NCBI RefSeq assembly: GCF_000426545.1
Contig: NZ_AUFO01000007.1
Span: forward strand, 1 to 64,000
DNA from: Paenibacillus massiliensis subsp. panacisoli DSM 21345
GTDB lineage: Bacteria > Bacillota > Bacilli > Paenibacillales > Paenibacillaceae
DNA length: 64,000 nt
Reading direction: 5' to 3'
The notes beneath the pieces were generated by a model. It had not been told where the DNA came from and ran no database searches. It saw only the letters and a list, made by a program, of their open reading frames with translations. Position 1 is the stretch's first letter; the number at the start of each line of letters is the position of its first letter. Below, in pieces: positions 1 to 12,002 of this stretch. The position numbers and the translations under genes are program-made.

Positions 1-330
1 TTTGGTGTAGCGGCCTCGCAGTACCCTGCCCATGCATTTCAAACCGCTACCGCAGACCGTGGCAAAGAGTTTGCCTGTTACGCCAGCCTGGAAGCCACTC
101 ATGGCCTAGAGGTGTATTTCGCAGATCCGTACTCCTCCTGGCAACGCGGTTCGAATGAGAATGCCAATGGCCTCTTACGAGAGTTTTTCCCCAAAGGGAC
201 GGATTTCGCACAAATCACGGATGAAGCGCTGGAGACCGCTCTGCGCTTGATTAATCTCAGACCACGAAAATGCTTGGGGTGGAGAACCGCTCACGAATCC
301 TTTTCAGAGGAACTGTCGCACTTGGCTTGA
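1..330 (+). CDS. IS30-family transposase, C-terminal part
   Basis: This is the end of a DDE transposase of the IS30 type; the start lies outside the window. The visible ~109 residues carry the second catalytic aspartate (ADRGKEF) and the third acidic residue in GSNENANGLLREFFPKGTDF, which is the IS30 family signature. The gene stops at TGA 328-330. The probable right inverted repeat (around 310-337, CTGTCGCACTTGGCTTGACA) overlaps the stop, as is usual for this family. The element ends inside the 3' part of the next gene and has evidently cut off the left end of the cassette array. Whether the copy is complete to the left cannot be seen. Confidence 0.88.
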   Translation, partial: FGVAASQYPAHAFQTATADRGKEFACYASLEATHGLEVYFADPYSSWQRGSNENANGLLREFFPKGTDFAQITDEALETALRLINLRPRKCLGWRTAHESFSEELSHLA

Positions 331-813
331 CAATCCGTCAATATCAAAATTAAATTCTAATTCATTGGCATCCATTATGCTTTTAAGGTGCTCGAATTTT
401 TGTATTAATTCTCTAGAAAATTCAAAAATCTGAGCCCGTAGAAAGATAAACTTATTTGAACTTTCGATAGTCTGATCATTGAAAGGGGATTGCTCAGTTA
501 ACCAAATTATTCTGTCGGCCTCGTGGATTACTTCAACATAGTAACCGCCACAACCAAATATTCCGCAGGTGCATGTAAATAAAGGATATATTCCCGGATT
601 AAGTAAGGATTTAAAAAATTCTTCTACTATAAATACTTCATCTTCATCTAGTTTATTCTCATTAATATATAAGAGGAGTCTCCAATCAACTATAGGAACC
701 ATTCGACCTTTTACTCTTGTAATATTCTTGTATGTTTTTCTGGTCTCTATTTTCATCTCTATAGACAACTTATCTGGTTTGAATTCCCTATCTTTCTTTG
801 AGTGAAGCTCCAT
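304..813 (-). pseudogene. Cassette A: hypothetical protein, 3' end replaced by IS30
   Basis: A 169-residue reading frame with a good ribosome binding site (GAGGTG 4-5 nt before ATG at 813). I do not recognise the family. A cysteine-rich stretch (CTCGIFGCGG, about residue 82-91) resembles short Cys motifs in several bacterial proteins of unknown function and could bind metal. The last ~9-11 residues are encoded by the IS30 right end, so the natural C-terminus, the stop codon and the downstream recombination site are lost. The gene start lies 48 bp from the inverse core at 861, like the other cassette genes. The protein may still be made as a hybrid. Confidence 0.6.
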
Positions 814-860
814 ATTTCACCTCTGTCTTTTACGATCCTTATAAGTCATTGCAGTATTTC

Positions 861-1023
861 GCTTAACGTTCTTGTGTTCACGAGCCCGAGAGACTTAAGG
901 GAGCGTAGCGACTGGGTGCGAAGCACTTAGTCTCGCAGGGTTGTCTGCCTGATCCACTTCTTCGCCTAACTCTTCGGGCAGACCAAGGGGGGGTGTCCCC
1001 TGCAGCGTGAACACGGGTTATCA
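861..1023 (-). repeat. attC-like recombination site 1 (long type)
   Basis: Starts with inverse core GCTTAAC (861-867) and ends with core GTTATCA (1017-1023). After the first core comes a 7-nt spacer and the arm TGTTCACG; before the last core comes the matching arm CGTGAACA and a 3-nt spacer. The arms differ from most other sites but remain complementary. The middle folds into further stems (GTTGTCTG..., GGGGG...CCCC). The stop codon of the next gene lies in the GTTATCA core. Confidence 0.72.
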
Positions 1024-1506
1024 GATGTTGTCATCTCTATTGTCAGTTAATCTAATAAGTTTATTGTTATACAATTGTAATCTCTCTTCGAAACTAATAC
1101 GACTTCTTTCAAAATCTCTTGTCCATTTGTACATCATCTTTAACATTTTTATATCTGGTTTATAATGACTCTTTTCAATACCGAGTTTTTGTTTTAGAAA
1201 CCGTATAAAAATTCTAAGCTTCCGTTTCCATAATGGTGTATCAAGAAAAATTATTGTATCAGCCATATCAAATAAGCATCGATATGATTCTCTATCTGTT
1301 CCTTCGAATATCCAAGATCCCCTACTGTCAATATTGTTAATTACCGCAATTTGTTCTTCCTGTGTTCGTTTATATCTTTCATTTTCTATTTGATGATGAA
1401 CAATACAGTCAAGTTCAAACCATGGAATACCTAATGTCTTTGATAATCTCTTGGCTAATGTTGTTTTACCACTTGCTACTATACCAATTATCAAAATTTT
1501 GTTCAT
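1021..1506 (-). CDS. Cassette B: P-loop AAA-type nucleotide kinase, FlaR/topology-modulation-like
   Basis: A 161-residue protein beginning MNKILIIGIVASGKTTLAKR, with the Walker A motif GIVASGKT at residues 8-15. The layout (Walker A, then WFELDCIVHHQ, then a WIFEGTDR segment and a FLDTPLWKRKLRIF stretch) matches small AAA proteins annotated as DNA topology modulation protein FlaR or adenylate-kinase-like. The substrate is unknown. The start at 1506 is chosen because AGGAG lies 11 nt upstream (1518-1522); an earlier in-frame ATG at 1569 lies inside the recombination site and has no such signal. The stop TGA overlaps the core of site 1. No promoter fits between the gene and site 2. Confidence 0.8.
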   Translation of the reverse strand: MNKILIIGIVASGKTTLAKRLSKTLGIPWFELDCIVHHQIENERYKRTQEEQIAVINNIDSRGSWIFEGTDRESYRCLFDMADTIIFLDTPLWKRKLRIFIRFLKQKLGIEKSHYKPDIKMLKMMYKWTRDFERSRISFEERLQLYNNKLIRLTDNRDDNI

Positions 1507-1548
1507 TTGAGGTTTTGCTCCTAATAAATTTTGCACTTTGGCAATTTC

Positions 1549-1716
1549 CGATAACGTTCTCGTATTCACGACGCCGAGAGGCTTAAGGGAACAAAGTTCC
1601 CCGGCTGCGCTTGCGTAGTTGCCTCGTAGGTGTGTTCGCCTGACTCCACTTCTTGTCGATTTATTCAGGCGAAGCTAGGAGCTGTTAGGCTCCGCCGTGT
1701 GAATATATTGTTATCG
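1549..1716 (-). repeat. attC-like recombination site 2 (long type)
   Basis: Inverse core CGATAAC (1549-1555) and core GTTATCG (1710-1716). Arms TATTCACG and GTGAATA with spacers of 7 nt (GTTCTCG) and 4 nt (TATT). The core on its right belongs to cassette C and matches the far end of that cassette over 15 of 16 bases. Confidence 0.72.
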
Positions 1717-2280
1717 GATATCCCCTCTTACAGTGCGGCTTAAAAATGATATTATTGAAGAACTCTTAGATAGCAATGAGTTTATTTTTATGAGATCTTG
1801 AATAAACAATTCAATTTTGCTTTCTACTTCATCAATGAACTCATTTACAGTGATACAGATATTTTTCTCTTTGTCTCTATTTGAATTGATAAAGTAATTA
1901 TCTTTATAGACAATGAAATCACCAAAATCTCCCGCTTCATAAAACAACTCTGATATGTAAACATAATCATTGATCCTTCTAAACTCTAACCAGACCCATG
2001 GGCTTTCAATATAATGTATAGCAACATAATCAGATATTTGCTTCTTAAACGACTTAGCCACCAAGTATAGCTGTTCAAAATGTATCAAAAGTGCCTCTGA
2101 GAATATTTCAGGGTTTTTACCTATTGTCTCCTCTGAAGGGTATGGAAGATAGTAATAATCTCCCAACCTAACATTGAATTCACCGTAAATGTTCTTAAAT
2201 TCTCTTTCTAATTCTTCAAGATCTGCTAACCTTAATTCATCCTCGTAATATACTTTGTATATTATTTTTATTTTTACCAT
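1711..2280 (-). CDS. Cassette C: hypothetical protein
   Basis: A 189-residue soluble protein, acidic and rich in aromatic residues (for example GDYYYLPYPSEET and SPWVWLEFRRINDYVYISELFYEAGDF). No signal peptide or membrane segment is visible. I do not recognise a family; the composition would fit a small immunity or SMI1-like protein, but that is only inference. The TAA stop lies in the core GTTATCG of site 2. The start is only 22 bp from the next inverse core, and the purine-rich AAGGA directly before ATG is a poor ribosome site, so the start is uncertain. The cassette ends (1710 and 2308) are complementary over 15 of 16 bases. Confidence 0.65.
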   Translation of the reverse strand: MVKIKIIYKVYYEDELRLADLEELEREFKNIYGEFNVRLGDYYYLPYPSEETIGKNPEIFSEALLIHFEQLYLVAKSFKKQISDYVAIHYIESPWVWLEFRRINDYVYISELFYEAGDFGDFIVYKDNYFINSNRDKEKNICITVNEFIDEVESKIELFIQDLIKINSLLSKSSSIISFLSRTVRGDIR

Positions 2281-2301
2281 TCCTTAATTTAAGGGGATTT
2301 C

Positions 2302-2396
2302 CGATAACGTTTCTGTATTCACGACCCGACGTATGTCGGAGTCCGGCGAATGCCGTACCCAGGGCGTATGCCCGCAGCGTGAATATTATGTTATGT
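2302..2396 (-). repeat. attC-like recombination site 3 (short type)
   Basis: Inverse core CGATAAC (2302-2308), core GTTATGT (2390-2396). Arms TATTCACG / CGTGAATA pair perfectly; spacers are 7 nt (GTTTCTG) and 4 nt (TTAT). The centre holds two small stems, one with GACGTATGTC and one around GGCGAATGCC. Confidence 0.75.
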
Positions 2397-2421
2397 GGTG
2401 TACCGGCCTTCTTGAATCTAC

Positions 2422-2817
2422 TTACAAATGATCGCTTCTGTATTTACTTATGTGCTCTTCTAATGTCTTTCTCGCTTCTTCATAGATTCTAATCACTTCA
2501 TCCAATTCATTCTTCAACTCTTTATGTTCTTTCCAATATTCTTTCTCCACTTTGAGTATCGAACAAAATAAATCTCCGATATATAAATTTCCTGATCCGA
2601 ATGGGTTCTGTATTAATTGCTCTAAGGCTAGAGGTAAAAGAAAATCTAGATTCATTTGTTGCCCAATCAAAAGTCTTAAATCTTCATTATTCAATTCACA
2701 AAGAGGTTTATTCCTTAATCGATGTACTTGGATCACTAATGAAGAAGCAAAATTCGGTTCGCCCCAATATTTTCCTTCAAGTTCTTCAAGGGTTTTGGTT
2801 AGATCTATTTGTTGCAT
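2422..2817 (-). CDS. Cassette D: contact-dependent inhibition immunity protein, CdiI family
   Basis: A 131-residue protein with the run KYWGEPNFASSLVIQVHRLR, then RNKPLCELNNEDLRLLIGQQ and a segment PLALEQLIQNPFGSGNLYIG. This pattern (W.EP...SSLV..CHRLR.KPL.....EDLR..IGQ......P.ALE.L..NP...GD.Y.GDL) is that of proteins annotated as contact-dependent growth inhibition system immunity protein (CdiI_2-type family). Such proteins neutralise a toxin domain delivered by a neighbouring cell. No toxin gene is nearby, so this would be an orphan immunity gene. A ribosome site AGGGTG lies 5 nt before ATG. The gene lies between sites 3 and 4, 38 bp from the upstream core. Confidence 0.82.
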   Translation of the reverse strand: MQQIDLTKTLEELEGKYWGEPNFASSLVIQVHRLRNKPLCELNNEDLRLLIGQQMNLDFLLPLALEQLIQNPFGSGNLYIGDLFCSILKVEKEYWKEHKELKNELDEVIRIYEEARKTLEEHISKYRSDHL

Positions 2818-2854
2818 GGCTTCACCCTCTTAAATAAATGGTTTCCGTTATGTC

Positions 2855-2969
2855 ACATAACGTTCCTGTATTCATGGACCCCGAAGGGGTTGTCTGCTGA
2901 AATGCTTCCTGAAATCCTTCTCGTAGACCAAGGCTCCAAAGGAGCCGCTGCTTGAATATTATGTTATAC
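2855..2969 (-). repeat. attC-like recombination site 4 (short type)
   Basis: Inverse core ACATAAC (2855-2861) complements core GTTATGT at the other end of cassette D. Core GTTATAC (2963-2969) belongs to cassette E. Arms TATTCATG / CTTGAATA; spacers 7 nt (GTTCCTG) and 4 nt (TTAT). The centre has stems CCCCGAAGGGG and GGCTCC-AAA-GGAGCC. It is closely similar to site 7. Confidence 0.75.
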
Positions 2970-3018
2970 GACGGAATCGCTTCTCTGATTGACCAAAATC
3001 TTCTTTTCTTCTTTAACT

Positions 3019-3225
3019 TTATTCGGGATCTGCTTTATGTTCCAATAAATCTCCAGGCTGGCATCCCAATGCTGTACATAATTTATCAATTACTTCTAAC
3101 GATACATACTCGTTTGTATTGAGCTTTGCCATCGTCGCCGATGAAATACCCGTCATTTTCAATAAATCTTGTTTCTTAATTTCTCTGTCAATCAACAATT
3201 TTTGAAATGGTTTATAACTTATCAT
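3019..3225 (-). CDS. Cassette E: XRE/Cro-CI family repressor
   Basis: A 68-residue single-domain helix-turn-helix protein starting MISYKPFQKLLIDREIKKQD; the DNA-contact helices lie around LLKMTGISSATMAKLNTNEY. The end (CTALGCQPGDLLEH) is typical of the short HTH_26/YozG-like Cro/CI repressors. The start at 3225 is supported by AAGGAGT about 6 nt upstream; an upstream ATG at 3291 lacks one. It is divergent from the gene at 3397, and the shared intergenic region holds three copies of an A+T palindrome, so autoregulation and control of its neighbour are likely. Confidence 0.85.
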   Translation of the reverse strand: MISYKPFQKLLIDREIKKQDLLKMTGISSATMAKLNTNEYVSLEVIDKLCTALGCQPGDLLEHKADPE

Positions 3226-3270
3226 TGGGTACTCCTTCATATCCGTATTGAATTTTTCTTTAATTATATG

Positions 3271-3337
3271 AAAATATATTTCCTTAATCAAAAATATATT
3301 TGATATGTCTTGAATATATTTTTCGTTATGATAAAAT
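3271..3337. promoter_or_regulatory. Divergent promoter with three AAATATATTT repeats
   Basis: The palindromic motif AAATATATTT or close variants occurs near 3272, 3292 and 3313, about 20 bp apart, or roughly two helical turns. A plus-strand promoter can be proposed as TTGAAT (3310-3315), 16 bp, TAAAAT (3332-3337), so the third motif lies between -35 and -10. By position these are candidate operators for the XRE repressor encoded beside them. The inference rests on spacing and symmetry only. Confidence 0.5.
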
Positions 3338-3396
3338 AATATTCAACAAGTTAAATTTTTGTTCGCAAAATAAAATATAACGGAGTGTGATCATTT

Positions 3397-3684
3397 ATGC
3401 ATCATTCTTTAGAAGTCTTACTTGATTCGTTGATACGTAATCGAATTGAAGCCTTATATAGCGATCTTCTCAAGAACAACACCATTTATAATCAATTCTC
3501 ATCTGATCGAAATCTTTACTTCAAACAGTTACATGAACTTCTACCTCAGGAAATGCATAAAACTCTATTTCTTTACGATGATGCAGACCTCTCAGTTCAA
3601 ACAATCCTAGAACGTGAAATCTACTTGCAAGGTTTTAAGGATGCTCTTCAATTACATAATGAATTAAATATAACTTCTAATTGA
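3397..3684 (+). CDS. Cassette E: small hypothetical protein, DUF6809-like
   Basis: A 95-residue helical protein, the only cassette gene on the plus strand. The end (SVQTILEREIYLQGFKDALQ) resembles the conserved tail of DUF6809-type proteins found with XRE regulators in Bacillota phages and islands, with the pattern ..RE.F..GF..G. The function is unknown. A ribosome site GGAG lies about 10-12 nt before ATG, and a strong terminator follows immediately. Together with the divergent repressor it makes a self-contained regulated unit within one cassette. Confidence 0.7.
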   Translation: MHHSLEVLLDSLIRNRIEALYSDLLKNNTIYNQFSSDRNLYFKQLHELLPQEMHKTLFLYDDADLSVQTILEREIYLQGFKDALQLHNELNITSN

Positions 3685-3704
3685 GAGCCAAACGGCTCTC
3701 TTTT
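3683..3704 (+). terminator. Rho-independent terminator of cassette E plus-strand gene
   Basis: Perfect stem GAGAGCC (3683-3689) / GGCTCTC (3694-3700), loop AAAC, followed by TTTT. It overlaps the stop codon of the gene at 3397 and ends 15 bp before the inverse core of site 5. Confidence 0.88.
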
Positions 3705-3718
3705 CATTTGATTCTGTC

Positions 3719-3883
3719 GTATAACGTTCCTGTATCCACGACGTCCCACCGACTTAAGCGACCAACGGGAGCGGCCGCGATACGGTTAGTCGGTGCGGAT
3801 GTGTCCGCTGATTCTGCTTCCCTGCCGATCGCTTCAAGCGGACCGAGGGCTGTCAGGCCCGAAGCGTGGATATGATGTTAGCA
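3719..3883 (-). repeat. attC-like recombination site 5 (long type)
   Basis: Inverse core GTATAAC (3719-3725) complements core GTTATAC at 2963, with the match running on to 15 of 16 bases (GTTATACGACGGAATC against GTTATACGACAGAATC). Core GTTAGCA (3877-3883). The arms are TATCCACG / CGTGGATA: a T-to-C change on one side is matched by A-to-G on the other. Spacers are 7 nt and 4 nt. The first ~90 bp are nearly identical to site 8. Confidence 0.78.
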
Positions 3884-3898
3884 GATGTTAATGTCATC

Positions 3899-4516
3899 TT
3901 AGAATTGCTTCAAAAGTTCTTCTCTTGCTTTGATTAACCACGGATGGACTAATTTCAATTTGTCTCTTTGTTCCCATATGTTATTTAAATAGATTAGTAT
4001 TCCTTCTGTTATTTTGTGTTCATCCACTTTCGTTCGTATGTCCTTCAAATATTGATGGTCTCCTGGAAGTTCCCATGAGATCTTATCAGAAATAAATAAG
4101 ACTTTATCCAATAAAGAGGAATGTGGCTTCATAGTTGTATGACACTCTACTGCACTTAACATTTCTTGATCATCAATTTTAAATATTTCAATAGCCATTG
4201 CTTTTGATAGCTTTTGATGTACGATTCGGGCATAAGTTCTCTCTTCCGGCAAGATTTCTATTGAAAGCACTTCTGCAACATGTAACATTTCTTTCACTGG
4301 AATGACATTACTTATATCATGAAGAAGTCCTACTTGCTCCGCTTTCAATGGATCTACATTATATAATTGAGCAACTCGTCTTGCTTCAGCTGCGACTTTC
4401 AATGTATGCTCCAATGTTTCTTTGTCATTATGTATTGTGAAAAACTTCTGGATATCATACTTTAGGTCATTCGTTAATTTAAAGTTTGGCACAAACTGTT
4501 CAAGTATGGTGTTCAT
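3899..4516 (-). CDS. Cassette F: HD-domain phosphohydrolase, YqeK-like
   Basis: A 205-residue HD-superfamily protein. The metal-binding residues are visible as H in LEHTLKVA (about residue 37), HD in GLLHDISN (about 66-67) and D in LLDKVLFISDKISWE (about 143). This arrangement is like YqeK, which in Bacillus hydrolyses diadenosine tetraphosphate; the true substrate is unknown. The ribosome site AAAGGGGA lies 10 nt before ATG. The cassette ends (3877 and 4552) match over about 15 of 17 bases (GTTAGCAGA..TTAATG). Confidence 0.82.
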   Translation of the reverse strand: MNTILEQFVPNFKLTNDLKYDIQKFFTIHNDKETLEHTLKVAAEARRVAQLYNVDPLKAEQVGLLHDISNVIPVKEMLHVAEVLSIEILPEERTYARIVHQKLSKAMAIEIFKIDDQEMLSAVECHTTMKPHSSLLDKVLFISDKISWELPGDHQYLKDIRTKVDEHKITEGILIYLNNIWEQRDKLKLVHPWLIKAREELLKQF

Positions 4517-4545
4517 GTTTTTGGGTTCCCCTTTGCATTAATTTC

Positions 4546-4638
4546 TGCTAACGTTCCTGTATTCATGAACCACGGAGGGGTTGTCTGGCGAATGCCAGAT
4601 CAAGGGCGAATGTCCGCAGCGTGAATATTATGTTAGAT
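4546..4638 (-). repeat. attC-like recombination site 6 (short type)
   Basis: Inverse core TGCTAAC (4546-4552), core GTTAGAT (4632-4638), which is a perfect match to the integron core consensus GTTRRRY. Arms TATTCATG / CGTGAATA; spacers 7 nt (GTTCCTG) and 4 nt (TTAT). The centre holds a stem CTGGCG-AAT-GCCAG. Confidence 0.75.
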
Positions 4639-4659
4639 GATGTTGCTAGCTTCTTTGAA

Positions 4660-4974
4660 TCACTCACTATATGATCTTGAGGCTTTAATCAATTCATCTT
4701 CTTCATCAAAAACTCCCAACACTCTGTCAATATCACTTACTTCATAGCTTCTGACTACAATAAGCTGTTGCATATGAAGACCTGGTGGGTCAATGTTTGG
4801 TCTAGATAAGTTATTTAATAATCTTTCTGGTGTATATAAAATGCTCCATCTTTTGGAACCATCCGTGAAATACATCGTGATTTCTATCCAATTCCATTCT
4901 TCTGGATTATCAGTTTCAACCTCATCATCGAAATGCCATCTTAATAACCTTGATCTTAAATTCAGTTCTTTCAC
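4660..4974 (-). CDS. Cassette G: hypothetical protein
   Basis: A 104-residue soluble protein containing WNWIEITMYFTDGSKRWSIL and YTPERLLNNLSRPNIDPPG. I do not recognise the family; the size and acidic beta-rich look would fit an immunity-type protein, but there is no direct evidence. The start is GTG at 4974 with GAGGTG 8 nt upstream. The cassette ends at 4632 and 5016 match as GTTAG.TGA..TTGCTAG, with mismatches at the same inner positions as in the other cassettes. Confidence 0.65.
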   Translation of the reverse strand: MKELNLRSRLLRWHFDDEVETDNPEEWNWIEITMYFTDGSKRWSILYTPERLLNNLSRPNIDPPGLHMQQLIVVRSYEVSDIDRVLGVFDEEDELIKASRSYSE

Positions 4975-5009
4975 AATGTTTTCACCTCTCTTTGTAACCT
5001 AGCAATTTC

Positions 5010-5123
5010 AGCTAACGTTCCCGTATTCATGAACCCCAAAGGTTGTCTGCTGAAATGCCTCTTCGAAATCCACCTCGCAGACCAAGGCTCCAATGGAGCC
5101 GCCGCTTGAATATTATGTTATGA
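5010..5123 (-). repeat. attC-like recombination site 7 (short type)
   Basis: Inverse core AGCTAAC (5010-5016), core GTTATGA (5117-5123). Arms TATTCATG / CTTGAATA; spacers 7 nt (GTTCCCG) and 4 nt (TTAT). The centre is nearly the same as in site 4, including the stem GGCTCC / GGAGCC. Confidence 0.75.
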
Positions 5124-5144
5124 GATGTCATTGACCTCTTCGAA

Positions 5145-5477
5145 TCAACCCCAAAACATTCCGTTATGCCCCTCGTCCACTATCTTTAATTGCGTTTCAA
5201 AATCTTGATTCGGTTCGATATCATCTATGAAATGCCATTTATTTTTACTATCTTGCCAATAGACTTTCCATTTGCTTTTTTCATCTATTCTGAACTGAGC
5301 TACTGGCATCTGCACCCATATATCACTTTTGTAGCCTTGTCTTTCTTCTATTAGTGTCACATTGTTTCCTCTGATCTTGTAACTGACTTTAATCTGGTTT
5401 TTCAAATGAACTGGTACTTTGTTTTGTGTGTAACTGTCCATAATTTTCATAATCCGCTTCTTCGTAAAATCATCCAT
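5145..5477 (-). CDS. Cassette H: DUF3024 domain protein
   Basis: A 110-residue protein whose whole length fits DUF3024: VSYKIRGNNVTLIEERQGY, the central PVAQFRIDEKSKWKVYWQDS, KWHFIDD, and the C-terminal ending HNGMFWG. The function of the domain is unknown; members are small cytosolic proteins found scattered in Bacillota. A ribosome site AGGAGAG lies about 8 nt before ATG at 5477. The cassette ends (5117 and 5536) match as GTTATGAGA..TCATTG. Confidence 0.82.
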   Translation of the reverse strand: MDDFTKKRIMKIMDSYTQNKVPVHLKNQIKVSYKIRGNNVTLIEERQGYKSDIWVQMPVAQFRIDEKSKWKVYWQDSKNKWHFIDDIEPNQDFETQLKIVDEGHNGMFWG

Positions 5478-5529
5478 TTATGGCTCTCCTGTCTTATCCG
5501 TTTTACTCTGTTTATATCACAATGATGTC

Positions 5530-5699
5530 TCATAACGTTACTGTATCCACGACGTCCCACCGACTTAGGCGACCAACGGGAGCGGCCGCGATGCGGTTAG
5601 TCGGTGCGGATGTGTCCGCCTGAATCCAACTTCCCAACTACTCTCCTTCTAGCGGACCGAGGAGCCGTTAGGCTCCGATGCATGGATATGATGTTATAT
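5530..5699 (-). repeat. attC-like recombination site 8 (long type)
   Basis: Inverse core TCATAAC (5530-5536), core GTTATAT (5693-5699). Arms TATCCACG / CATGGATA; spacers 7 nt (GTTACTG) and 4 nt (TGAT). It shares with site 5 a long nearly identical block (GACGTCCCACCGACTTA...CGGTTAGTCGGTG), then diverges near the second half. Confidence 0.75.
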
Positions 5700-5723
5700 G
5701 ATTGGGATGCCTACTCGAATTAC

Positions 5724-6233
5724 TTAACAATTCGGAATCTCGAAAGTTTGTGAAATCACTTTTTGTAGTCCTAAGCCATCAATCTCAATAGTCTCTTGTT
5801 CTTCGAAGAACTCAATATTATGTTCTTCATAGTATTTCTTCCAAAATCTCACTGCTGGTTTATTTTCCACTAGTTGACCGATACTAATTTTTCCTTTTAA
5901 TTGCTTAAATACTTTCTCTATTCCTAACGAAGCAATTCTATTACCGCGATATTTCCTTAATAAAAATAATTCCTGTATTGTAAAATTAACTCCTTCTGGA
6001 ACAAACGGAGGGGAACAAACTAATATGAAGCCAATTGGTTTGCCTAGATGCATAACAAAAAATGGATGCAACTCCTCTCTCTCTAGGTACAGGTAAGTAT
6101 TTGTTGGATCAAATTTCCCATCATCTTTTAGATCTTCACAGGTATATTCTGATAAGTCATACAAATATAAATTATACAAATTCAAAAAAGTATCGGCTTG
6201 ATCTTTTGTTATTTTTGTAATCTCAATATCCAT
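5724..6233 (-). CDS. Cassette I: GNAT family N-acetyltransferase
   Basis: A 169-residue acetyltransferase. The acetyl-CoA binding region is visible as IQELFLLRKYRGNRIASLGI (R-x-x-G-x-x pattern, about residues 86-105) followed by VENKPAVRFWKKYYEEH, the usual N-terminal helix of motif B with FW/FY. The acceptor substrate is unknown. The start is taken at ATG 6233 because AGAGGTG lies 9 nt upstream; the in-frame GTG at 6245 is inside that ribosome site. GNAT enzymes are frequent cargo of gene cassettes. Confidence 0.85.
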   Translation of the reverse strand: MDIEITKITKDQADTFLNLYNLYLYDLSEYTCEDLKDDGKFDPTNTYLYLEREELHPFFVMHLGKPIGFILVCSPPFVPEGVNFTIQELFLLRKYRGNRIASLGIEKVFKQLKGKISIGQLVENKPAVRFWKKYYEEHNIEFFEEQETIEIDGLGLQKVISQTFEIPNC

Positions 6234-6274
6234 TTGAAATGACACCTCTTTTTTATATTCTTTGCCCCCCTTTC

Positions 6275-6392
6275 ATATAACGTTCCTGTATTCAGGAACC
6301 CCGAAGGGGTTGGCTGTATGCAACCGCTTCCCCCAAATTATCTACGGCAGACCCAGGGCCGAACGGCCCGCAGCGTGAATATTATGTTATCT
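6275..6392 (-). repeat. attC-like recombination site 9 (short type)
   Basis: Inverse core ATATAAC (6275-6281) complements GTTATAT at 5693. Core GTTATCT (6386-6392) has no partner further right. Arms TATTCAGG / CGTGAATA; spacers 7 nt (GTTCCTG) and 4 nt (TTAT). Stems CCCCGAAGGGG and GGGCC-GAAC-GGCCC lie in the centre. Confidence 0.75.
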
Positions 6393-6412
6393 GCTGTTTC
6401 TCTCTTTTTCGA

Positions 6413-6679
6413 TTAATCAGTTAGCAAATCTTTCAATAACCATTCATTATTGTTTCCGTCTTTCGAAACAAACCAAATATGACTATACTTTTCCTGTTTA
6501 TATATTGCACTTTTGTATTTAAGAAAATCACTCATTCCATATACAGGAGAAGCATTTCTGATTAACAGGGCTATAGGGTAATTACGTATATGATATCTTA
6601 TACGGTGATTTTTGCGAAGAAAAATTTGGTGAAAAAGGGGGGATCTTCTGCACCCCAAGGGAATCAAGCAACCTTCCAA
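6413..6679 (-). pseudogene. Cassette J: hypothetical protein, 5' part missing or broken
   Basis: An 88-residue frame whose C-terminal half (MSDFLKYKSAIYKQEKYSHI, then WFVSKDGNNNEWLLKDLLTD) looks like a normal soluble protein, while the first ~30 residues are unusual and no convincing ribosome site precedes the ATG at 6679. The expected inverse core complementary to GTTATCTGCTG is not found upstream. The cassette therefore appears to have lost its promoter-proximal end, and this is the right edge of the array. No family recognised. Confidence 0.45.
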
Positions 6680-6711
6680 TGTCTTCTTAATTCTTTACCC
6701 AAGCTGTAATA

Positions 6712-7020
6712 CTAATCAATTTGTTCTGATGAATAATAATAAACCATTGAACCAGCCACTATTTCGCTTGGCGATCCCCCTTTCCCCAAACAAATACCAA
6801 TATTCTTTTTACCCGCAATTGAATGGTTGATCTGAGAAGAAACAACATCATATATCCGCTCTTCTCCATCCACTGTTTTAATCACGATCTGATCACCGAT
6901 AATCTCTTGGATTTTTGAAGGAAGAAGATCATCCAACTCTTCATTCGCCCCCATCACGATAGTTCCGTATTCAGGTGTATCGAAGACCAAACCTACGCCA
7001 AACAACATCTTTGTTTCCAT
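6712..7020 (-). CDS. Hypothetical protein
   Basis: A 102-residue protein with an excellent ribosome binding site (AAGGAGGT 6 nt before ATG). It is beta-rich, with a run VIKTVDGEERIYDVVSSQIN and a glycine-rich tail. No signal peptide or membrane segment. I do not recognise it. It lies between the broken cassette J and the terminator of the iron operon, and could be a remnant of the array flank or an independent gene. Confidence 0.6.
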   Translation of the reverse strand: METKMLFGVGLVFDTPEYGTIVMGANEELDDLLPSKIQEIIGDQIVIKTVDGEERIYDVVSSQINHSIAGKKNIGICLGKGGSPSEIVAGSMVYYYSSEQID

Positions 7021-7185
7021 TCTCTGACCTCCTTATCTCTAATCTATGAATAGCTCGCTCCTGATCCTGATACACTTTTTTCGTTATCATGTTTGTATAT
7101 TTTAATCTCGTGATTTCAATCAGTTCATTTGGCTGCATTATATTCAGGATATTCTCCACTAATCCAATGCATCTTGGATATACGT

Positions 7186-7213
7186 AAAAAGGGGAGTCAC
7201 AGTTCAACTCCCC
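7186..7213 (-). terminator. Terminator of the siderophore operon
   Basis: Stem GGGGAGT (7191-7197) / ACTCCCC (7207-7213) followed on the minus strand by TTTTT (7186-7190). It lies directly after the stop codon of the AraC-type regulator gene. Confidence 0.88.
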
Positions 7214-8935
7214 TCACCCCAACAACGCCTGCTCAATCTGATCCACAATCCCATTAATCCCCATCGGCCCATAACAACCAATCCACATTGCCGCATCTAC
7301 CGAATGCACTCGTTGCTCTTCGCCCCGACCAAGCATCCCCAAAACTCGCTGCTCTGTCGCAGATATCCCATCCTGCATAAGTTCATTACTTAGCAAAAAG
7401 TAGTGACTTGCCTGCACTGCTGGTAATCTCTCAACCGAGATATGATAGGCTGTGTCGGAGGTATCTGCGACAAATAACGGAACAGGCAGACCTAGATCAC
7501 GGTACAGCACAGCCCCTGTGCGATGAGCGGCGGAATGCACGCGAACGAGAGAGTCCAGCGGGCGGATCAGAGCGACGCTTTTGCCTGCCAATACGGAAGC
7601 TAATTCCTCAGACAACAAAGCCGTTCTACGAAGATAATCCGCAATAATCTGCTTGCCTTCTGCTCGTTTACCTGTCAGTTCACCGAACAGACTAAGGATT
7701 GTCTGCCAGTTTTCATTACGTTTGAACATCAGTACAGGAGCAACCCCACTTAACCGTTCAAGATACTGCTCATGCACCTCAGTGCAGATAATAAGATCCG
7801 GTGCAAGTCGTTCTACGGCAGGCAAATCGGGGTATTCATACGTACCCAGTAATTCGGTGTCCTGGAGACCTGCCCGAAGGGACTGTGGGAAAGATAACAC
7901 GCTGCTTCCTAGTCCAACACTCCCTACCGGAGACAAGCCCAGCGCCAGCAAATGATCTGCATACTGCACATCAAGGACAGCGATACGTTGTGGTGTTTCG
8001 GTGACAGTGTACTCCCCTTGCATATGGCAGATGACCGGTCCTTGGGCTGATTCATAGGATGAAGCTGTGCGGTTTTGCAGTAGAGCTTTCGCATAGTCTG
8101 CATCGGTTCTCGAAGAGGCAGCATGCCGGTAATGCAGCGGTGGGACGCCAACATACTTTTTAAACGCCCTGCTAAAATAATACATATCCCGATAGCCCAG
8201 CTTGTCGGCAATTTCTCCTATGGAAGCATCCGTATGACGTAGCATGCGTGAGGCACTTTCCATGCGTAGCTGAATGACGTACTCCATCGGTCCGAGGTGC
8301 TTTTCTTGTTTGAAGCGGCGCTGCAACTGTCTTACACTACAGCCCGCGAGGGTAGCCAGATCTTTCAGCTCCAGATTTTGACGATAATGCGACGCAATGT
8401 AGGAAGCGACCACATCCACCATGTCGGGCTCCGCTCCCCCCTGACCATGTTCATATGCCATGATCAGTTCGTAGATCATCCCCTGGAGCAAAGCATTGGC
8501 ATAAAATCGTTCCAGCCCTTCGCCACGGCGCCATTTGGCAACGATTTTTTCGGCGTTTTCGATCCATTCGGCATGGGCTACCGAGTTTTGTACAAATGAT
8601 CTACGCAGCGGATGTTTTCGGTACGAAGGCATAACAATAGAGGCTCCCTCCATAGAAGAAGCCTTGTACTTGATCACCATATAATGAATGTCCTCTGATC
8701 TGGCCGTCAGCGTGTAGGATGATCCCTTCACCGCATGACAGGCAAAAGAAGCTCCAATGTGGCAACCCTCGCCATCCATTGCAAGTTCCCCTTCCCCTCC
8801 GTATGCCAGCAGCAGTACATTAGAAGTTACATTTGTTTCGTGTAAAATGCTGCCTGTCTGCAAAGTACCGCTATATCCGTCAAGCATCTTGATTGCTGTA
8901 TCACTCCAACCACTTGTCTGTTCTTGCAGCGGCAT
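7214..8935 (-). CDS. AraC regulator fused to iron-siderophore binding domain (Btr-like)
   Basis: A 573-residue fusion. An N-terminal cupin-like half (about 1-165) is followed by two AraC helix-turn-helix motifs (about 175-275: LKDLATLAGCSVRQLQRRFK and GEIADKLGYRDMYYFSRAFKK). The C-terminal ~290 residues form a FecB/FeuA-like periplasmic-binding domain (from TETPQRIAVLDVQYADHLLA). The architecture is that of Bacillus Btr (YbbB), which senses ferri-bacillibactin and activates its uptake genes. The start at 8935 is preferred because AGGAG is 9 nt upstream; the ATG at 8944 abuts that site. It is the last gene of the operon, 45 bp after the FhuF-like gene. Confidence 0.87.
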   Translation of the reverse strand: MPLQEQTSGWSDTAIKMLDGYSGTLQTGSILHETNVTSNVLLLAYGGEGELAMDGEGCHIGASFACHAVKGSSYTLTARSEDIHYMVIKYKASSMEGASIVMPSYRKHPLRRSFVQNSVAHAEWIENAEKIVAKWRRGEGLERFYANALLQGMIYELIMAYEHGQGGAEPDMVDVVASYIASHYRQNLELKDLATLAGCSVRQLQRRFKQEKHLGPMEYVIQLRMESASRMLRHTDASIGEIADKLGYRDMYYFSRAFKKYVGVPPLHYRHAASSRTDADYAKALLQNRTASSYESAQGPVICHMQGEYTVTETPQRIAVLDVQYADHLLALGLSPVGSVGLGSSVLSFPQSLRAGLQDTELLGTYEYPDLPAVERLAPDLIICTEVHEQYLERLSGVAPVLMFKRNENWQTILSLFGELTGKRAEGKQIIADYLRRTALLSEELASVLAGKSVALIRPLDSLVRVHSAAHRTGAVLYRDLGLPVPLFVADTSDTAYHISVERLPAVQASHYFLLSNELMQDGISATEQRVLGMLGRGEEQRVHSVDAAMWIGCYGPMGINGIVDQIEQALLG

Positions 8936-8980
8936 TTCTCTCATCTCCTGACAATCGCATAGGTATAATCATTGCTGTTG

Positions 8981-9757
8981 TCATTGTAGTTGAGATTCTT
9001 TCTCATTGTCAATTTTCGGACATTTGAGACAATATTCCCCTGACATCTGGTAGTAAAAGCAGCAGGTGATCCGCTCACTTTTGGCAACATGCACATTGTC
9101 TTTACAATCGGTAAAACGGGTCAACGGGTTCTTTCTCTCACCAAACACTTGCCCCGATGCCACCTGCGTCAAATAGGAGAAGTCCTCTTGAATGATCTTA
9201 CGTTCCTGCTCCGTCTCACCTTCATCAGGAGCGAATAGTCGCCCGATCCGTACCATGATATTCTCCCAGAGAATACTCATCGAAAGGGGTGCAATCGTAG
9301 CAAGTGTCTTTAACAGAGGTGTCAGTTGAACTGCAAACATCTCCTGGACCGCCTTTTCCCGCCATATGTCCCGGTCCCCAGTCAGTTCTTCAGCCCGAAG
9401 CTCGTTCACCGCTAGAAAAGGAAATCGTGTACCCTCCTCATGTTCTTTGAGTTTCGGATGATAGAGAAAGGTGTTCTCCAGCTCAAAGGTTACATGCTGA
9501 TGATGAAACGTCATCGCGGTCACCAGCGGAGCCGTCCATAGATAGCCAAGTCGCTTGGCTAACATGGAAGCAGCAACCTTCATGTCTGGTGCATCGATAT
9601 AATGTTGAAACCAACTGATATACTCTCGGCACGCCTCTTCGTCATGCAGCTCACTCAGCGCAATGCTACGGACACTATGTTGAGGCGGCTCGCCAAGCAA
9701 AATCGAATGATCCTCCACCGTCTCTTTCCATATGTCTGTCGAGAGATATCGGCTCAT
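8981..9757 (-). CDS. FhuF-like ferric-siderophore reductase
   Basis: A 258-residue cytosolic protein. The C-terminal cysteine pattern CCFYYQMSGEYCLKCPK (CC-x9-C-x2-C) is the [2Fe-2S] site of FhuF, which releases iron from imported siderophores by reduction. The N-terminal body is typical of the IucA/IucC C-terminal / FhuF family (SMSILWENIMVRIGRLF). It starts one base after the stop codon of the binding protein gene and is probably translated by coupling, since the ribosome site is weak. Likely role: intracellular iron release for the siderophore taken up by the upstream protein. Confidence 0.87.
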   Translation of the reverse strand: MSRYLSTDIWKETVEDHSILLGEPPQHSVRSIALSELHDEEACREYISWFQHYIDAPDMKVAASMLAKRLGYLWTAPLVTAMTFHHQHVTFELENTFLYHPKLKEHEEGTRFPFLAVNELRAEELTGDRDIWREKAVQEMFAVQLTPLLKTLATIAPLSMSILWENIMVRIGRLFAPDEGETEQERKIIQEDFSYLTQVASGQVFGERKNPLTRFTDCKDNVHVAKSERITCCFYYQMSGEYCLKCPKIDNEKESQLQ

Positions 9758-9758
9758 A

Positions 9759-10799
9759 TTAGTTCGATCCGAGCAGGGCTTCCGAAGCCTGATCTACAAT
9801 CAGATTAATCGCAAGCGGTCCGTAGTACGCGATCCATAGTGTGGAGTTTACATCATACGTACGGTTATTTTTCACAGCATCAAGAGACTTCCATACCGGA
9901 TTGTTCACCATCGCCTCTGCTTCTACGGCAAACAGCTCATCCGACAGGACAAAATAACGATCTGCTCCAATCTCAGGAACTTTCTCCATCGAGACTTCTA
10001 CGGAAGTATCATCCTTGATTCCCTCAACGAGTGCAGGCATTTTCAAGCCCAGATCATTATACAGAATAACACCTGTACGGTGCTCGAGGCCATGAACACG
10101 AATGCCTTCTTTACGCGGACGAATCAGCGCTACCGTCTCATCACCCAGCTTCTCAGCCAGTTTCGTTTTCATTCCTGCCACTTTCTCTTCATATGCTGTA
10201 CGTACTTTCTCTGCCTCGTCCTGCTTGCCAGTAATTTTAGCCACTGTAGCTAACGTATCGCGCCAGTCTTCGTAGAAATCGAGTACCAGGATAGGTGCAA
10301 TTTTACTCACACTCTCATAATGCTTCTCTTGGAAGTCGGTCATGATGATCAAATCTGGATCTAAGGCTACGATGGCTTCCAGGTTCGGCTCGTCCCGTGT
10401 ACCCAGAACTTCAACGCCATTCGCCTGATCACCCAAGTATTCTGGAAAATCAGTGTTCCCTCCAGCGATAACACTACCTGCCGGCTTTTCGCCAACCGCT
10501 AACATTTGATCCAAAAACTTAACATCCAGCACGGCAACTTTCTTCGGTTTTTCGTTTAGCGTGATGTCGCCCATCATACCCTTGATCGTTACTGGAAAAG
10601 CGCCGTCGGTCTTCGTTTCTGTACTCGCAGGTGTATCCGAAGGTGTTGCCGCGGATTGTTTACCGCTATCTGTACCTGCTCCGGCACCACACGCCGTCAG
10701 GACTAGAATCAGGGCCAACATCAAGCCCATCAGTAATCGTGATTTGTGAGCAGCATAGCCTTTGCTTCCGGCCGCTTGCCCGTTTGTTCCTTGTTTCAT
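9759..10799 (-). CDS. Iron-siderophore ABC transporter substrate-binding lipoprotein (FeuA/FecB family)
   Basis: A 346-residue lipoprotein: signal peptide LLMGLMLALILVLTACGAG with lipobox LTAC, then a low-complexity linker, then a class III binding fold (KKVAVLDVKFLDQMLAVGEK; LEAIVALDPDLIIMTDFQEK; VALIRPRKEGIRVHG). Its sequence resembles the C-terminal half of the AraC fusion downstream, suggesting both bind the same ferric siderophore. The start at 10799 has AAGGAGG upstream; the in-frame ATG at 10904 is too far. A Fur box lies 28-46 bp before the start. The matching permease genes are not in this window. Confidence 0.9.
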   Translation of the reverse strand: MKQGTNGQAAGSKGYAAHKSRLLMGLMLALILVLTACGAGAGTDSGKQSAATPSDTPASTETKTDGAFPVTIKGMMGDITLNEKPKKVAVLDVKFLDQMLAVGEKPAGSVIAGGNTDFPEYLGDQANGVEVLGTRDEPNLEAIVALDPDLIIMTDFQEKHYESVSKIAPILVLDFYEDWRDTLATVAKITGKQDEAEKVRTAYEEKVAGMKTKLAEKLGDETVALIRPRKEGIRVHGLEHRTGVILYNDLGLKMPALVEGIKDDTSVEVSMEKVPEIGADRYFVLSDELFAVEAEAMVNNPVWKSLDAVKNNRTYDVNSTLWIAYYGPLAINLIVDQASEALLGSN

Positions 10800-10826
10800 T
10801 TGTAAATCCTCCTTATGCATACTAGC

Positions 10827-10845
10827 GATAATGATTTTCATTATC
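10827..10845 (-). promoter_or_regulatory. Fur box
   Basis: The 19-mer GATAATGATTTTCATTATC is near palindromic and matches the classical Fur consensus at 17 of 19 positions (the two differences are central). It lies directly upstream of the siderophore-binding lipoprotein gene, so the operon at 10799-7214 should be repressed by Fur when iron is plentiful. Confidence 0.88.
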
Positions 10846-10950
10846 GAAACATAAAGAGAGCATAAACGATCTGTGCATCGTGTTACCATGTACTTTTGCG
10901 ACACTTCAGTCGGACTAATGCGACATCATGATTCATGTTTTACCAATCCA

Positions 10951-11229
10951 TTATCCACCTTTTAATTTCTCAGCAATATAAGCATGCAGACGGTAAATGT
11001 CTGAAAGAAGCTCTTCTTCCTCCGGCGTATTTCCATACTCCCCGAGCCAACGTGGTGTGCGGATATGCCAATCCTCTGTCAGGTATTGCTTGTCATCGCG
11101 ATACTCTAAAATATGTTCCAGGAAATATTCCAGAGAGCCGAAGGATTGTTTCTGATTATCGCTGATAATGGATTGTGTGTTCTCAATGATTGTATGTAAC
11201 ATTTGTTGAATATGCCCTTCTGGAGTCAT
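10951..11229 (-). CDS. Hypothetical protein
   Basis: A 92-residue acidic helical protein (MTPEGHIQQMLHTIIENTQS...EYGNTPEEEELLSDIYRLHA). Strong ribosome site GGAGGA 6-8 nt before ATG. No signal peptide or membrane segment; no family recognised. It begins 26 bp after the TetR gene stop and is probably co-transcribed with it. Confidence 0.65.
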   Translation of the reverse strand: MTPEGHIQQMLHTIIENTQSIISDNQKQSFGSLEYFLEHILEYRDDKQYLTEDWHIRTPRWLGEYGNTPEEEELLSDIYRLHAYIAEKLKGG

Positions 11230-11255
11230 AGTTGATCTCCTCCAAAGGAATATTT

Positions 11256-11825
11256 TTAAGGATTCATATCCAGATTTCGTTCAAGCATTGCTCCTATACG
11301 TTCAGCCATCACGGAAGGTGGGAGAGGCTTTTCATGTGTAAACCACCATTCCACGACTCCAACGATAGCTCCCCCCACAAACTGAACCTCCACAAGTTGA
11401 TCTTTCATTAATTCGGTGTTCATAGTACCTGGAATGCTCTCGTTCCCCTTCTGTAATTCATGGATAAAAAAGTCCAGAAACTGCTTACGAAAAAAAGAAC
11501 TGCCTTTACTCACCAGCAATGCGGAGAAAAATAAAAAGTGCTTCTCAAAATATTCAAACCACATGAATACCATGTTGTTATAACCCATGTCTATCTCCGT
11601 AGATTCACAGACTTCACGCAAATTCTCAATATGCTCTGTGATGAGTTTATTCAGAAGATCAAATTTATCTGTGTAATGAAGATAGATCGTTCTCCGGCTG
11701 ATATCCGCTTTGTCGGAAATGTCCTGGATCGTAATATGATCAAAATCTTTGTTCATCATCAGTTCAATAACCGCCGTTTTGATAGCTTCTTGGGATTTGC
11801 GTATCCTTCGATCCACCTTTACCAC
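11256..11825 (-). CDS. TetR/AcrR family transcriptional regulator
   Basis: A 189-residue repressor. The N-terminal domain has the TetR helix-turn-helix (ITIQDISDKADISRRTIYLH YTDK, about residues 32-56) and the C-terminal ligand domain is of the TetR_C_8-like short type. The start is GTG at 11825 with GGGTGAT just upstream. It is divergent from the NAD(P)-binding gene at 12003, the usual arrangement for a TetR repressor and its target; an inverted repeat in the shared spacer is a candidate operator. Confidence 0.87.
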   Translation of the reverse strand: MVKVDRRIRKSQEAIKTAVIELMMNKDFDHITIQDISDKADISRRTIYLHYTDKFDLLNKLITEHIENLREVCESTEIDMGYNNMVFMWFEYFEKHFLFFSALLVSKGSSFFRKQFLDFFIHELQKGNESIPGTMNTELMKDQLVEVQFVGGAIVGVVEWWFTHEKPLPPSVMAERIGAMLERNLDMNP

Positions 11826-11962
11826 TTCATATCACCCTTTTTCTTCATTGATAATACGCAGTCTCAAACCATCTGTGCACAAATGCACGCAATCCAGCTT
11901 TTTAGCCATTGCAAGATTTTTATTTGTGTATACCATTATACATATATGATAAATAATACACT

Positions 11963-11982
11963 ACTGTGCACTAATTCACAGT
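11963..11982. promoter_or_regulatory. Candidate TetR operator
   Basis: Inverted repeat ACTGTG (11963-11968), 8 bp, CACAGT (11977-11982) in the divergent spacer between the TetR gene and the NAD(P)-binding gene. Another related half (CTGTGCAC) occurs near 11872. Assigned to TetR by position and symmetry only. Confidence 0.5.
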
Positions 11983-12002
11983 AAGAAATGGAGTTTAACC
12001 AT

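Follow-up and report, generated by a model that had tools for sequence, protein, structure and literature searches.

A putative integron-like cassette array in Paenibacillus massiliensis subsp. panacisoli, likely deprived of its recombinase gene by deletion

The DNA analysed here is a stretch of 64,000 nucleotides (the window) comprising positions 1 to 64,000 of contig NZ_AUFO01000007.1 of Paenibacillus massiliensis subsp. panacisoli DSM 21345, which is C4:1-64000 in our numbering of this 43-contig genome. Comparison with relatives gives us high confidence that the window carries an integron-like array in which nine attC-like sites accompany ten gene units, eight of them complete and two truncated. 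The enzyme that moves the cassettes is likely a tyrosine recombinase that does not belong to the IntI family and whose gene was most likely deleted here, leaving a scar at 6580-6681. On most of the sequence tests run, the array works like an integron. A preliminary description, made from the letters of the window alone, had reported nine related elements between ten gene units and had read them as integron gene cassettes with attC sites. The count holds, with two of the ten units truncated, and the reading is supported by the pairing of each cassette's own ends, by cassette exchange with breaks at GTT and by a recombinase at the heads of related arrays.

Attachment sites, cassette ends and cassette exchange

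The nine elements lie within 860-6393 on the minus strand and measure 95-172 bp, including 4-nt flanks on each side. They align from a TAAC core at the beginning to a GTTA core at the end, with an inner stem between that starts 4 nt past TAAC and stops 7 nt ahead of GTTA. A model built from them recovers exactly these nine sites in the window and no others; Rfam at the gathering threshold yielded no family in positions 1-12000. The same model finds four further sites on the plus strand of contig C3 of this genome, the fourth being weak (E 0.07).

The array is complete at neither end. On the left it is cut by an open reading frame (ORF) at 1-330 that is insertion-sequence-like by eye and which we take to be the end of an IS30-type transposase gene. 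Because the first 330 bases look like the end of a transposase gene, the left array end is regarded as an assembly break. Contig C3 starts with an insertion-sequence-like element, presumably of the IS3 type, followed by the four sites and a few more gene units. Both contig ends at the array lie within insertion-sequence-like genes of different types (L032:1-1195, IS3-like, and window 1-330, IS30-like, both by eye), and the two array parts may therefore be joined via more than one element.

The set used for the study of site design comprises 406 sites in 31 loci, namely the nine of the window and a further 185 and 212 matches. The latter number was reached by dropping three of 215 matches (one cut at the end of its stretch, one weak and one on the opposite strand). 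TAAC and GTT bound 365 of the 406 sites; a perfect 6-bp L stem was found in 288 of these and spacers of 4 and 7 in 251. The site length is within 87-164 nt for 90% of the sites and 90-129 bp for the middle half. For published attC sites, the accessible text of PMC2727003 gives 57-142 nt and two 7-nt R boxes. In fixed register, the inner (L) stem extends over about eight positions, one of which pairs in half of the cases, and a clear bulge is absent. The asymmetry was located at nt 10-11 of the outer stem.

If the two ends of a mobile circle each carry one part of a site, the ends of each cassette are predicted to pair with each other. Such pairing was observed in all eight complete cassettes of the window, where 13-16 of 17 nt after GTT are complementary to those before AAC. 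In 155 cassettes from 11 loci (a test on 188 of the sites, six others having joined the set later), the pairing frequency at eleven positions following GTTA is 64-93%. When the partners are shuffled, it is 27-52% at nine of these positions; the remaining two hold conserved bases and pair at 67 and 93%. Within a single element, the ends pair much like shuffled pairs, indicating that the pairing belongs to the cassette's own ends.

We obtained 365 intervals of 60-2600 bp, 331 of which have GTT at both ends; counts for the outer stem refer to 336 cassettes selected with a slightly different filter. The median length of the 331 cassettes is about 824 bp. Their longest ORF runs along the array in 288 cases, and one cassette has no ORF. 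The cassette start follows the pattern GTTA-NNN-GA[AC]A in 274 of the 336 cassettes. In the outer stem, an A faces a C at nt 11 in 275 of them, and nt 12-17 form five or six pairs in 223. In beta-proteobacterial integrons used as control, A is opposite C at nt 11 in only 6 of 25 cassettes, which include near-duplicates. These 25 were retained from 57 intervals of a rough site finder for having two or more paired bases among the first three. Classical cassettes of the control also pair past the 7-nt box, up to about nt 12-13, where the pairing fades. An extended outer stem as such is hence not a wholly new feature, and the claim of novelty is confined to the interrupted, two-part outer stem and its A-C mismatch.

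Evidence for mobility comes from cassettes shared between arrays. Among the 331 cassettes, 145 pairs are homologous (at least 75% identity over at least 75% of the longer cassette), and 61 of these are alike over the full length at 90% or more. For the 61 pairs, the mean identity in 40-nt windows at the cassette start is 0.88 inside and 0.56 outside (0.44 and 0.56 in random pairs), and at the cassette end 0.78 inside and 0.48 outside (random pairs 0.55 and 0.44). Base by base and with no gaps allowed, the identity is 0.74-1.0 inside the start and 0.51-1.0 inside the end. It drops to 0.23-0.59 outside the conserved core and to 0.28-0.59 outside the start motif of the next unit. The homology thus breaks at GTT on both sides of the cassette. 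A pair of 99.4% identity in G033 and G064 occupies different ranks in the two arrays. The window shares one cassette with such arrays: its unit 2861-3724 has full-length homologues at 90 and 91% in the arrays of G037 and G016, which are different species and both possess the recombinase. The preliminary description had proposed to look for cassettes with different neighbours and breaks at GTT among strains; they were found between species, not between strains of one species.

The recombinase of the array heads and its loss from the window

In 18 of the 31 array loci, a tyrosine recombinase of about 370 amino acids is encoded upstream of the first site, on the cassette strand. The fetched stretch of the other 13 loci holds no recombinase, eight of them being second arrays of genomes already in the set. 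Across 149 genomes of the order, sites are present in 53 of 54 genomes with the recombinase compared to 35 of 95 without it (Fisher p 2e-15). In the genus, none of 75 genomes has a match above the cut-off (265 bits) of the integron-integrase model TIGR02249, and the best-scoring matches, all below the cut-off, adjoin arrays. The linked recombinase P0001 reaches 205 bits in two pieces. Five control genomes gave eight IntI matches at 365-508 bits; the six that span the full model score 467-508.

The recombinase resembles IntI and shares its SPLD tail, but lacks the IntI-specific insert of about 40 residues. The stretch from GKGxKxR to HxxRH spans 59-61 residues in the 20 measurable of 23 new sequences, compared to 99-100 in the 14 measurable of 17 IntI sequences, and the insert is visible as a gap in the alignment against IntI4 and IntI1. 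Most of the 23 are database relatives of P0001 or come from order genomes chosen without view of the neighbourhood. In the tree, the 17 IntI sequences form one clade (100/99) that contains none of the new ones. These group apart together with a recombinase of a Chryseobacterium plasmid, at a place that is uncertain given the long branches. As the integrase fails two defining tests (IntI-specific domain; IntI clade and model cut-off), it is not a member of the IntI family. The preliminary description had suggested a search for a tyrosine recombinase with the integron-specific insertion: the recombinase exists at array heads, whereas the insertion is absent. Its guess of a separate lineage of cassette system agrees with both the missing insertion and the position in the tree.

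The N-terminal stretch is weakly HARP-like, with 16.5 bits in P0001 and 24.9 bits in P0112 (cut-off 25). Among NCBIfam models, P0001 matches NF040815 (recomb_XerA_Arch) best, at 214 against a cut-off of 220. The NCBI label 'site-specific tyrosine recombinase/integron integrase', carried by some of these proteins, is the description of a XerA model. An AlphaFold model of the recombinase is middling (predicted local distance difference test 78.7, predicted template modelling score 0.48), with IntI4 and archaeal Xer proteins as best Foldseek matches (TM-scores 0.38-0.55 for the first nine); no claim is based on it. IntegronFinder calls IntI via PF00589 and an IntI-specific profile, as stated in the accessible part of PMC9668308, and its criteria would likely pass over these recombinases.

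A conserved stretch ending in GTTA follows the integrase in 17 of the 18 loci and is likely an attI-like site at which the first cassette starts. The first cassette begins 113-151 bp past the integrase match and pairs with its own end at 12-16 of 17 nt in 15 of 18 loci. The genome G001 harbours two apparently intact recombinase genes about 36 kb apart (C1:426850-427944 and 463778-464875), each with an attI-like site and cassettes. In ten loci, no LexA-like box (GAACnnnnGTTC) was found in the up to 300 nt upstream of the integrase. A hairpin with a T run, present there in G001 and other loci compared, could be a terminator or attenuator.

In the assembled genome of the window, no recombinase of the P0001 type was found at E 1e-40. 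No protein exceeded the TIGR02249 cut-off either; the best, at 70 bits, is XerD-like. A 359-residue Xer-like recombinase (G000:C18:35823-36659) is unlinked to the array. The head of the array in the window consists of two leader remnants (Table 1), the alignments of which exceed all 50 shuffles in each of the ten loci tested, these being the loci with the same leader type among the 18 integrase loci. The remnants overlap at CCCTTTTT, the likely deletion junction, one half of which corresponds to the T run behind the hairpin upstream of the integrase. Since the 5' leader of the integrase is fused to the leader of attI, the recombinase was likely deleted, and the aligned leaders are most simply explained by a single deletion between short repeats. 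The start of the head cassette seems to be missing as well, and the rightmost unit is regarded as a remnant because of the same fusion in 6580-6681. An 88-residue ORF with a TTG start (6413-6679) spans the fusion and is probably not a gene. Beyond the scar, window 6716-7058 aligns to the sequence directly upstream of the integrase in G001. The 102-residue gene located there is linked to the integrase in 13 of 32 other genomes that carry the gene, several of the integrase matches being partial.

By analogy with IntI, the recombinase would act on the folded single strand of the site, joining attI to attC and attC to attC, and the conserved A-C mismatch at nt 11 in the outer stem would help to choose the strand. 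Cassettes would be read from a promoter between integrase and attI. A candidate promoter (TTCGCA-17-TATCAT) is predicted at 6618-6590, pointing into the array, and a similar stretch occurs in the leaders of relatives; promoter-like sites in the leader stretch of the window (2) show no excess over the shuffle mean of 2.5. The array of the window's genome would now be fixed unless a recombinase were supplied from elsewhere.

Distribution, alternative explanations and known systems

All counts of distribution include the window's own genome, and the site numbers per genome are lower bounds, as only 38, 11, 19 and 9 of the candidates were scored per genome in the samples of genus, family, order and phylum, respectively. 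The model matches 74 of 75 genomes of the genus. In the family, sites were found in 169 of 245 genomes and 16 of 19 genera, and in the order in 88 of 149 genomes and 21 of 38 genera. Only 4 of 299 genomes have sites in the phylum-wide sample; two belong to the genus and two have single weak matches. Weak single sites outside the family are located at G447:C131:3596-3695 and G519:C1:1939440-1939658. A custom model of the nine sites, as the preliminary description had proposed, therefore finds them across genus, family and order. In one respect that description was wrong: it had called the array unexpected in a Paenibacillus-like genome, in which such sites are the rule.

Some arrays contain 35-39 sites within 38-41 kb. 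The flanks of the arrays match in only four other loci, so the arrays do not all occupy one genomic place. Six genomes (G037, G053, G039, G049, G001 and G040) have a second array with no recombinase in the fetched stretch; it lies 0.84-0.98 Mb from the first, a seemingly similar distance in each genome.

Based on the sequences compared, Chryseobacterium plasmids and one or more further Bacillota genomes possess related recombinases with like cassettes. At E 1e-40, 28 of the 299 genomes of the phylum sample encode a homologue of the recombinase, and 27 of these belong to other genera. Eight other Bacillota loci were examined for cassettes with 40 shuffles each. In G648, six tandem cassettes starting 114 bp after the gene score above every shuffle, with A opposite C at nt 11 in all six. 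Two good units lie directly behind the gene in G494, both with A opposite C, but only tie the shuffle maximum. Behind the recombinase of the Chryseobacterium plasmid, five tandem units were found, three of them with the A-C mismatch. A second such plasmid, with a recombinase 95% alike, matches through the gene end and the leader and parts exactly after GTT, which is the neatest natural sign of insertion at that point. The Chryseobacterium plasmid locus L164 contains a 188-bp unit twice (5140-5327 and 7235-7422; 97% alike), the paired ends of which lie too close together for a gene, so that it is apparently an empty cassette.

Having the same cassette logic and no integrase, the array of the window could be an ordinary cluster of attC sites lacking an integron-integrase (CALIN), holding cassettes of a classical IntI integron that came from Gram-negative bacteria or remained after the loss of a true intI. 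The few CALIN that IntegronFinder 2.0 reported for Firmicutes count in favour of this origin; complete integrons are extremely rare there (both from the accessible part of PMC9024848). Such an origin is nevertheless very improbable: no genome of the genus exceeds 265 bits with TIGR02249 while control IntI reach 365-508 bits, a different recombinase stands at the array heads, the scar of the window matches the leaders of that recombinase, and the sites, present in almost the whole genus, hardly occur in the phylum sample. Alternatively, host Xer recombinases could move the cassettes as dif-like modules, the linked recombinase being a passenger. That protein scores nearly as high on the XerC, XerD and XerA models as on the integron model, and 35 of the 95 order genomes without it contain sites. 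We give this little credence in view of the co-occurrence in 53 of 54 genomes, the fixed position at the array head and the attI-like site with the first cassette there. Moreover, dif-like sites are short (about 28 bp), whereas the sites described here are hairpin elements with R and L stems, mostly of 90-129 bp. As conserved hairpins of 95-172 bp, flanks included, the elements also recall dispersed repeats in the manner of miniature inverted-repeat transposable elements, which would lie between genes by chance and form no cassette system. All site matches within a locus are on one strand except for one weak match, their variable ends pair within the gene unit and not within the element, homology between arrays extends over gene and element together and ends at GTT, and an integrase and an attI-like site stand at the head; chance repeats are thus an exceedingly improbable explanation.

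Several points weigh against the preferred reading of an integron-like array moved by a recombinase outside the IntI family. Recombination was deduced from comparisons and none was observed. Similarity of 0.8 or more extends beyond the start in 7 and beyond the end in 5 of the 61 cassette pairs, so some of them have neighbours in common. The best pair (99.8%), which occupies the same rank in its two arrays, may be inherited. Counts are not independent because of the relatedness of homologous pairs and of genomes, and a few pairs lie within one genome. The longest ORF runs opposite to the array direction in 42 of 331 cassettes, and the first cassette is unpaired with the first site found in 3 of 18 loci (G025, G053 and G013). 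The recombinase matches in two pieces in 4 of 18 loci (G024, G025, G064 and G013), and a good part of its copies may therefore be dead. In fixed register, the inner stem shows none of the extra-helical bases of classical attC sites. The recombinase tree has long branches and only 3 Xer-type outgroup sequences. Finally, G648 is the only one of the eight other Bacillota loci to exceed its shuffles; G423, G642, G383, G467, G410 and G486 do not.

Compared to sedentary chromosomal integrons, the integron-like array and its relatives have in common tandem, mostly co-directional cassettes of mixed cargo, R and L stems with unpaired spacers, the G/TT boundary, an attI-like site at the integrase and own-end complementarity, which the classical control also exhibits. 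They differ by an integrase without insert, with an added, weakly HARP-like N-terminal stretch and outside the IntI clade, by the integrase gene being on the cassette strand, and by the two-part outer stem with A opposite C at nt 11 (275/336 vs 6/25). Transcription of the integrase toward attI, in cassette direction, is known from the chromosomal integron of Treponema, where the integrase is called intI (PMC3607928; likened here by the description in its accessible part). With its nine sites within 5.5 kb, the window falls under the definition of CALIN (at least two attC sites, less than 4 kb between them, no integrase), but its sites belong to a lineage with a non-IntI recombinase and are recognised by their own model, not by that of IntegronFinder. 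XerA and XerC/D share the catalytic domain and the absence of the insert with the recombinase described here, and differ in the SPLD tail, the N-terminal extension and the linkage to cassettes and an attI-like site. Among the matches listed for the open-licence PMC literature, no description of integrons in Paenibacillus was found; in its accessible part, PMC4909258 mentions Paenibacillus in one weak protein match and in one list of weakly related taxa.

It appears moderately probable that, with these systems, Bacillota and Bacteroidota possess a second and broad class of integrons, characterised by insert-less recombinases, a HARP-like N-terminal domain and an A-C mismatch at nt 11 of the outer stem marking the recombined strand. 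The insert would then be dispensable, or recombination of folded sites would have arisen twice, and the class would have gone unseen as integron finders require the insert. The IntI-specific domain has been described as necessary for integron recombination (PMC9668308, accessible part), and an array-head recombinase without it makes the role of the insert testable. Sites in 88 of 149 order genomes suggest that Gram-positive bacteria possess a large pool of cassettes, and part of the cargo matches phage-defence families. The system also provides a marker for finding the same design in other phyla. Classical integrons, which are built alike, spread antibiotic resistance.

Gene units of the window and cargo of the arrays

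The features of the array are listed in Table 1.

Table 1 Features of the integron-like array and its right flank in the window
Feature	Position	Strand	Remarks
Leftmost cassette, cut by insertion-sequence-like end	331..866	-	cut is presumed; ORF 304-813 runs into the insertion-sequence-like end
attC-like site 1	860..1024	-	4-nt flanks included; alignment and site model
Cassette, kinase-like P-loop protein	867..1554	-	ORF 1021-1569; best Pfam match AAA_18, just below cut-off
attC-like site 2	1548..1717	-	alignment and site model
Cassette, 189-aa protein	1555..2307	-	ORF 1711-2280; no Pfam match
attC-like site 3	2301..2397	-	alignment and site model
Cassette, CdiI_3 immunity-like protein	2308..2860	-	ORF 2422-2817
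attC-like site 4	2854..2970	-	alignment and site model
Cassette, HTH_26 regulator	2861..3724	-	ORF 3019-3291; plus diverging 95-aa ORF 3397-3684, + strand
attC-like site 5	3718..3884	-	alignment and site model
Cassette, HD-domain protein	3725..4551	-	ORF 3899-4516
attC-like site 6	4545..4639	-	alignment and site model
Cassette, 104-aa protein	4552..5015	-	ORF 4660-4974; no Pfam match
attC-like site 7	5009..5124	-	alignment and site model
Cassette, DUF3024 protein	5016..5535	-	ORF 5145-5477
attC-like site 8	5529..5700	-	alignment and site model
Cassette, GNAT acetyltransferase	5536..6280	-	ORF 5724-6245
attC-like site 9	6274..6393	-	alignment and site model
Head-cassette remnant (rightmost unit)	about 6281..6579	-	attC kept, start likely lost; no GTTA partner for its end by eye
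Remnant of integrase-to-attI leader	6580..6639	-	aligns in ten relative loci from 19-45 nt past integrase match
Remnant of integrase 5' leader	6632..6681	-	6647-6681 aligned in G016
Flanking 102-aa gene	6712..7020	-	in 13 other genomes of the genus, upstream of an integrase match (distance up to 1.1 kb) and on its strand

A scan of the array cargo, which covered the longest 148 of 254 non-redundant ORFs, yielded matches to 78 Pfam families and 78 PADLOC models. Among the matches listed (25 of 78 each), the commonest are APH, DUF5677, TIR and HNH, followed by Mrr and GNAT; ThsB-like proteins occur twice, and NucC, AbiJ, GajA and PD-T4-6 once each. Transposase families are also present. Three proteins of the cassettes on contig C3 (L032:1772-4962) were judged by eye to be DinB-family-like. 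In the window, the HTH_26 regulator and the 95-residue ORF on the opposite strand of the same cassette could be an antagonist couple.

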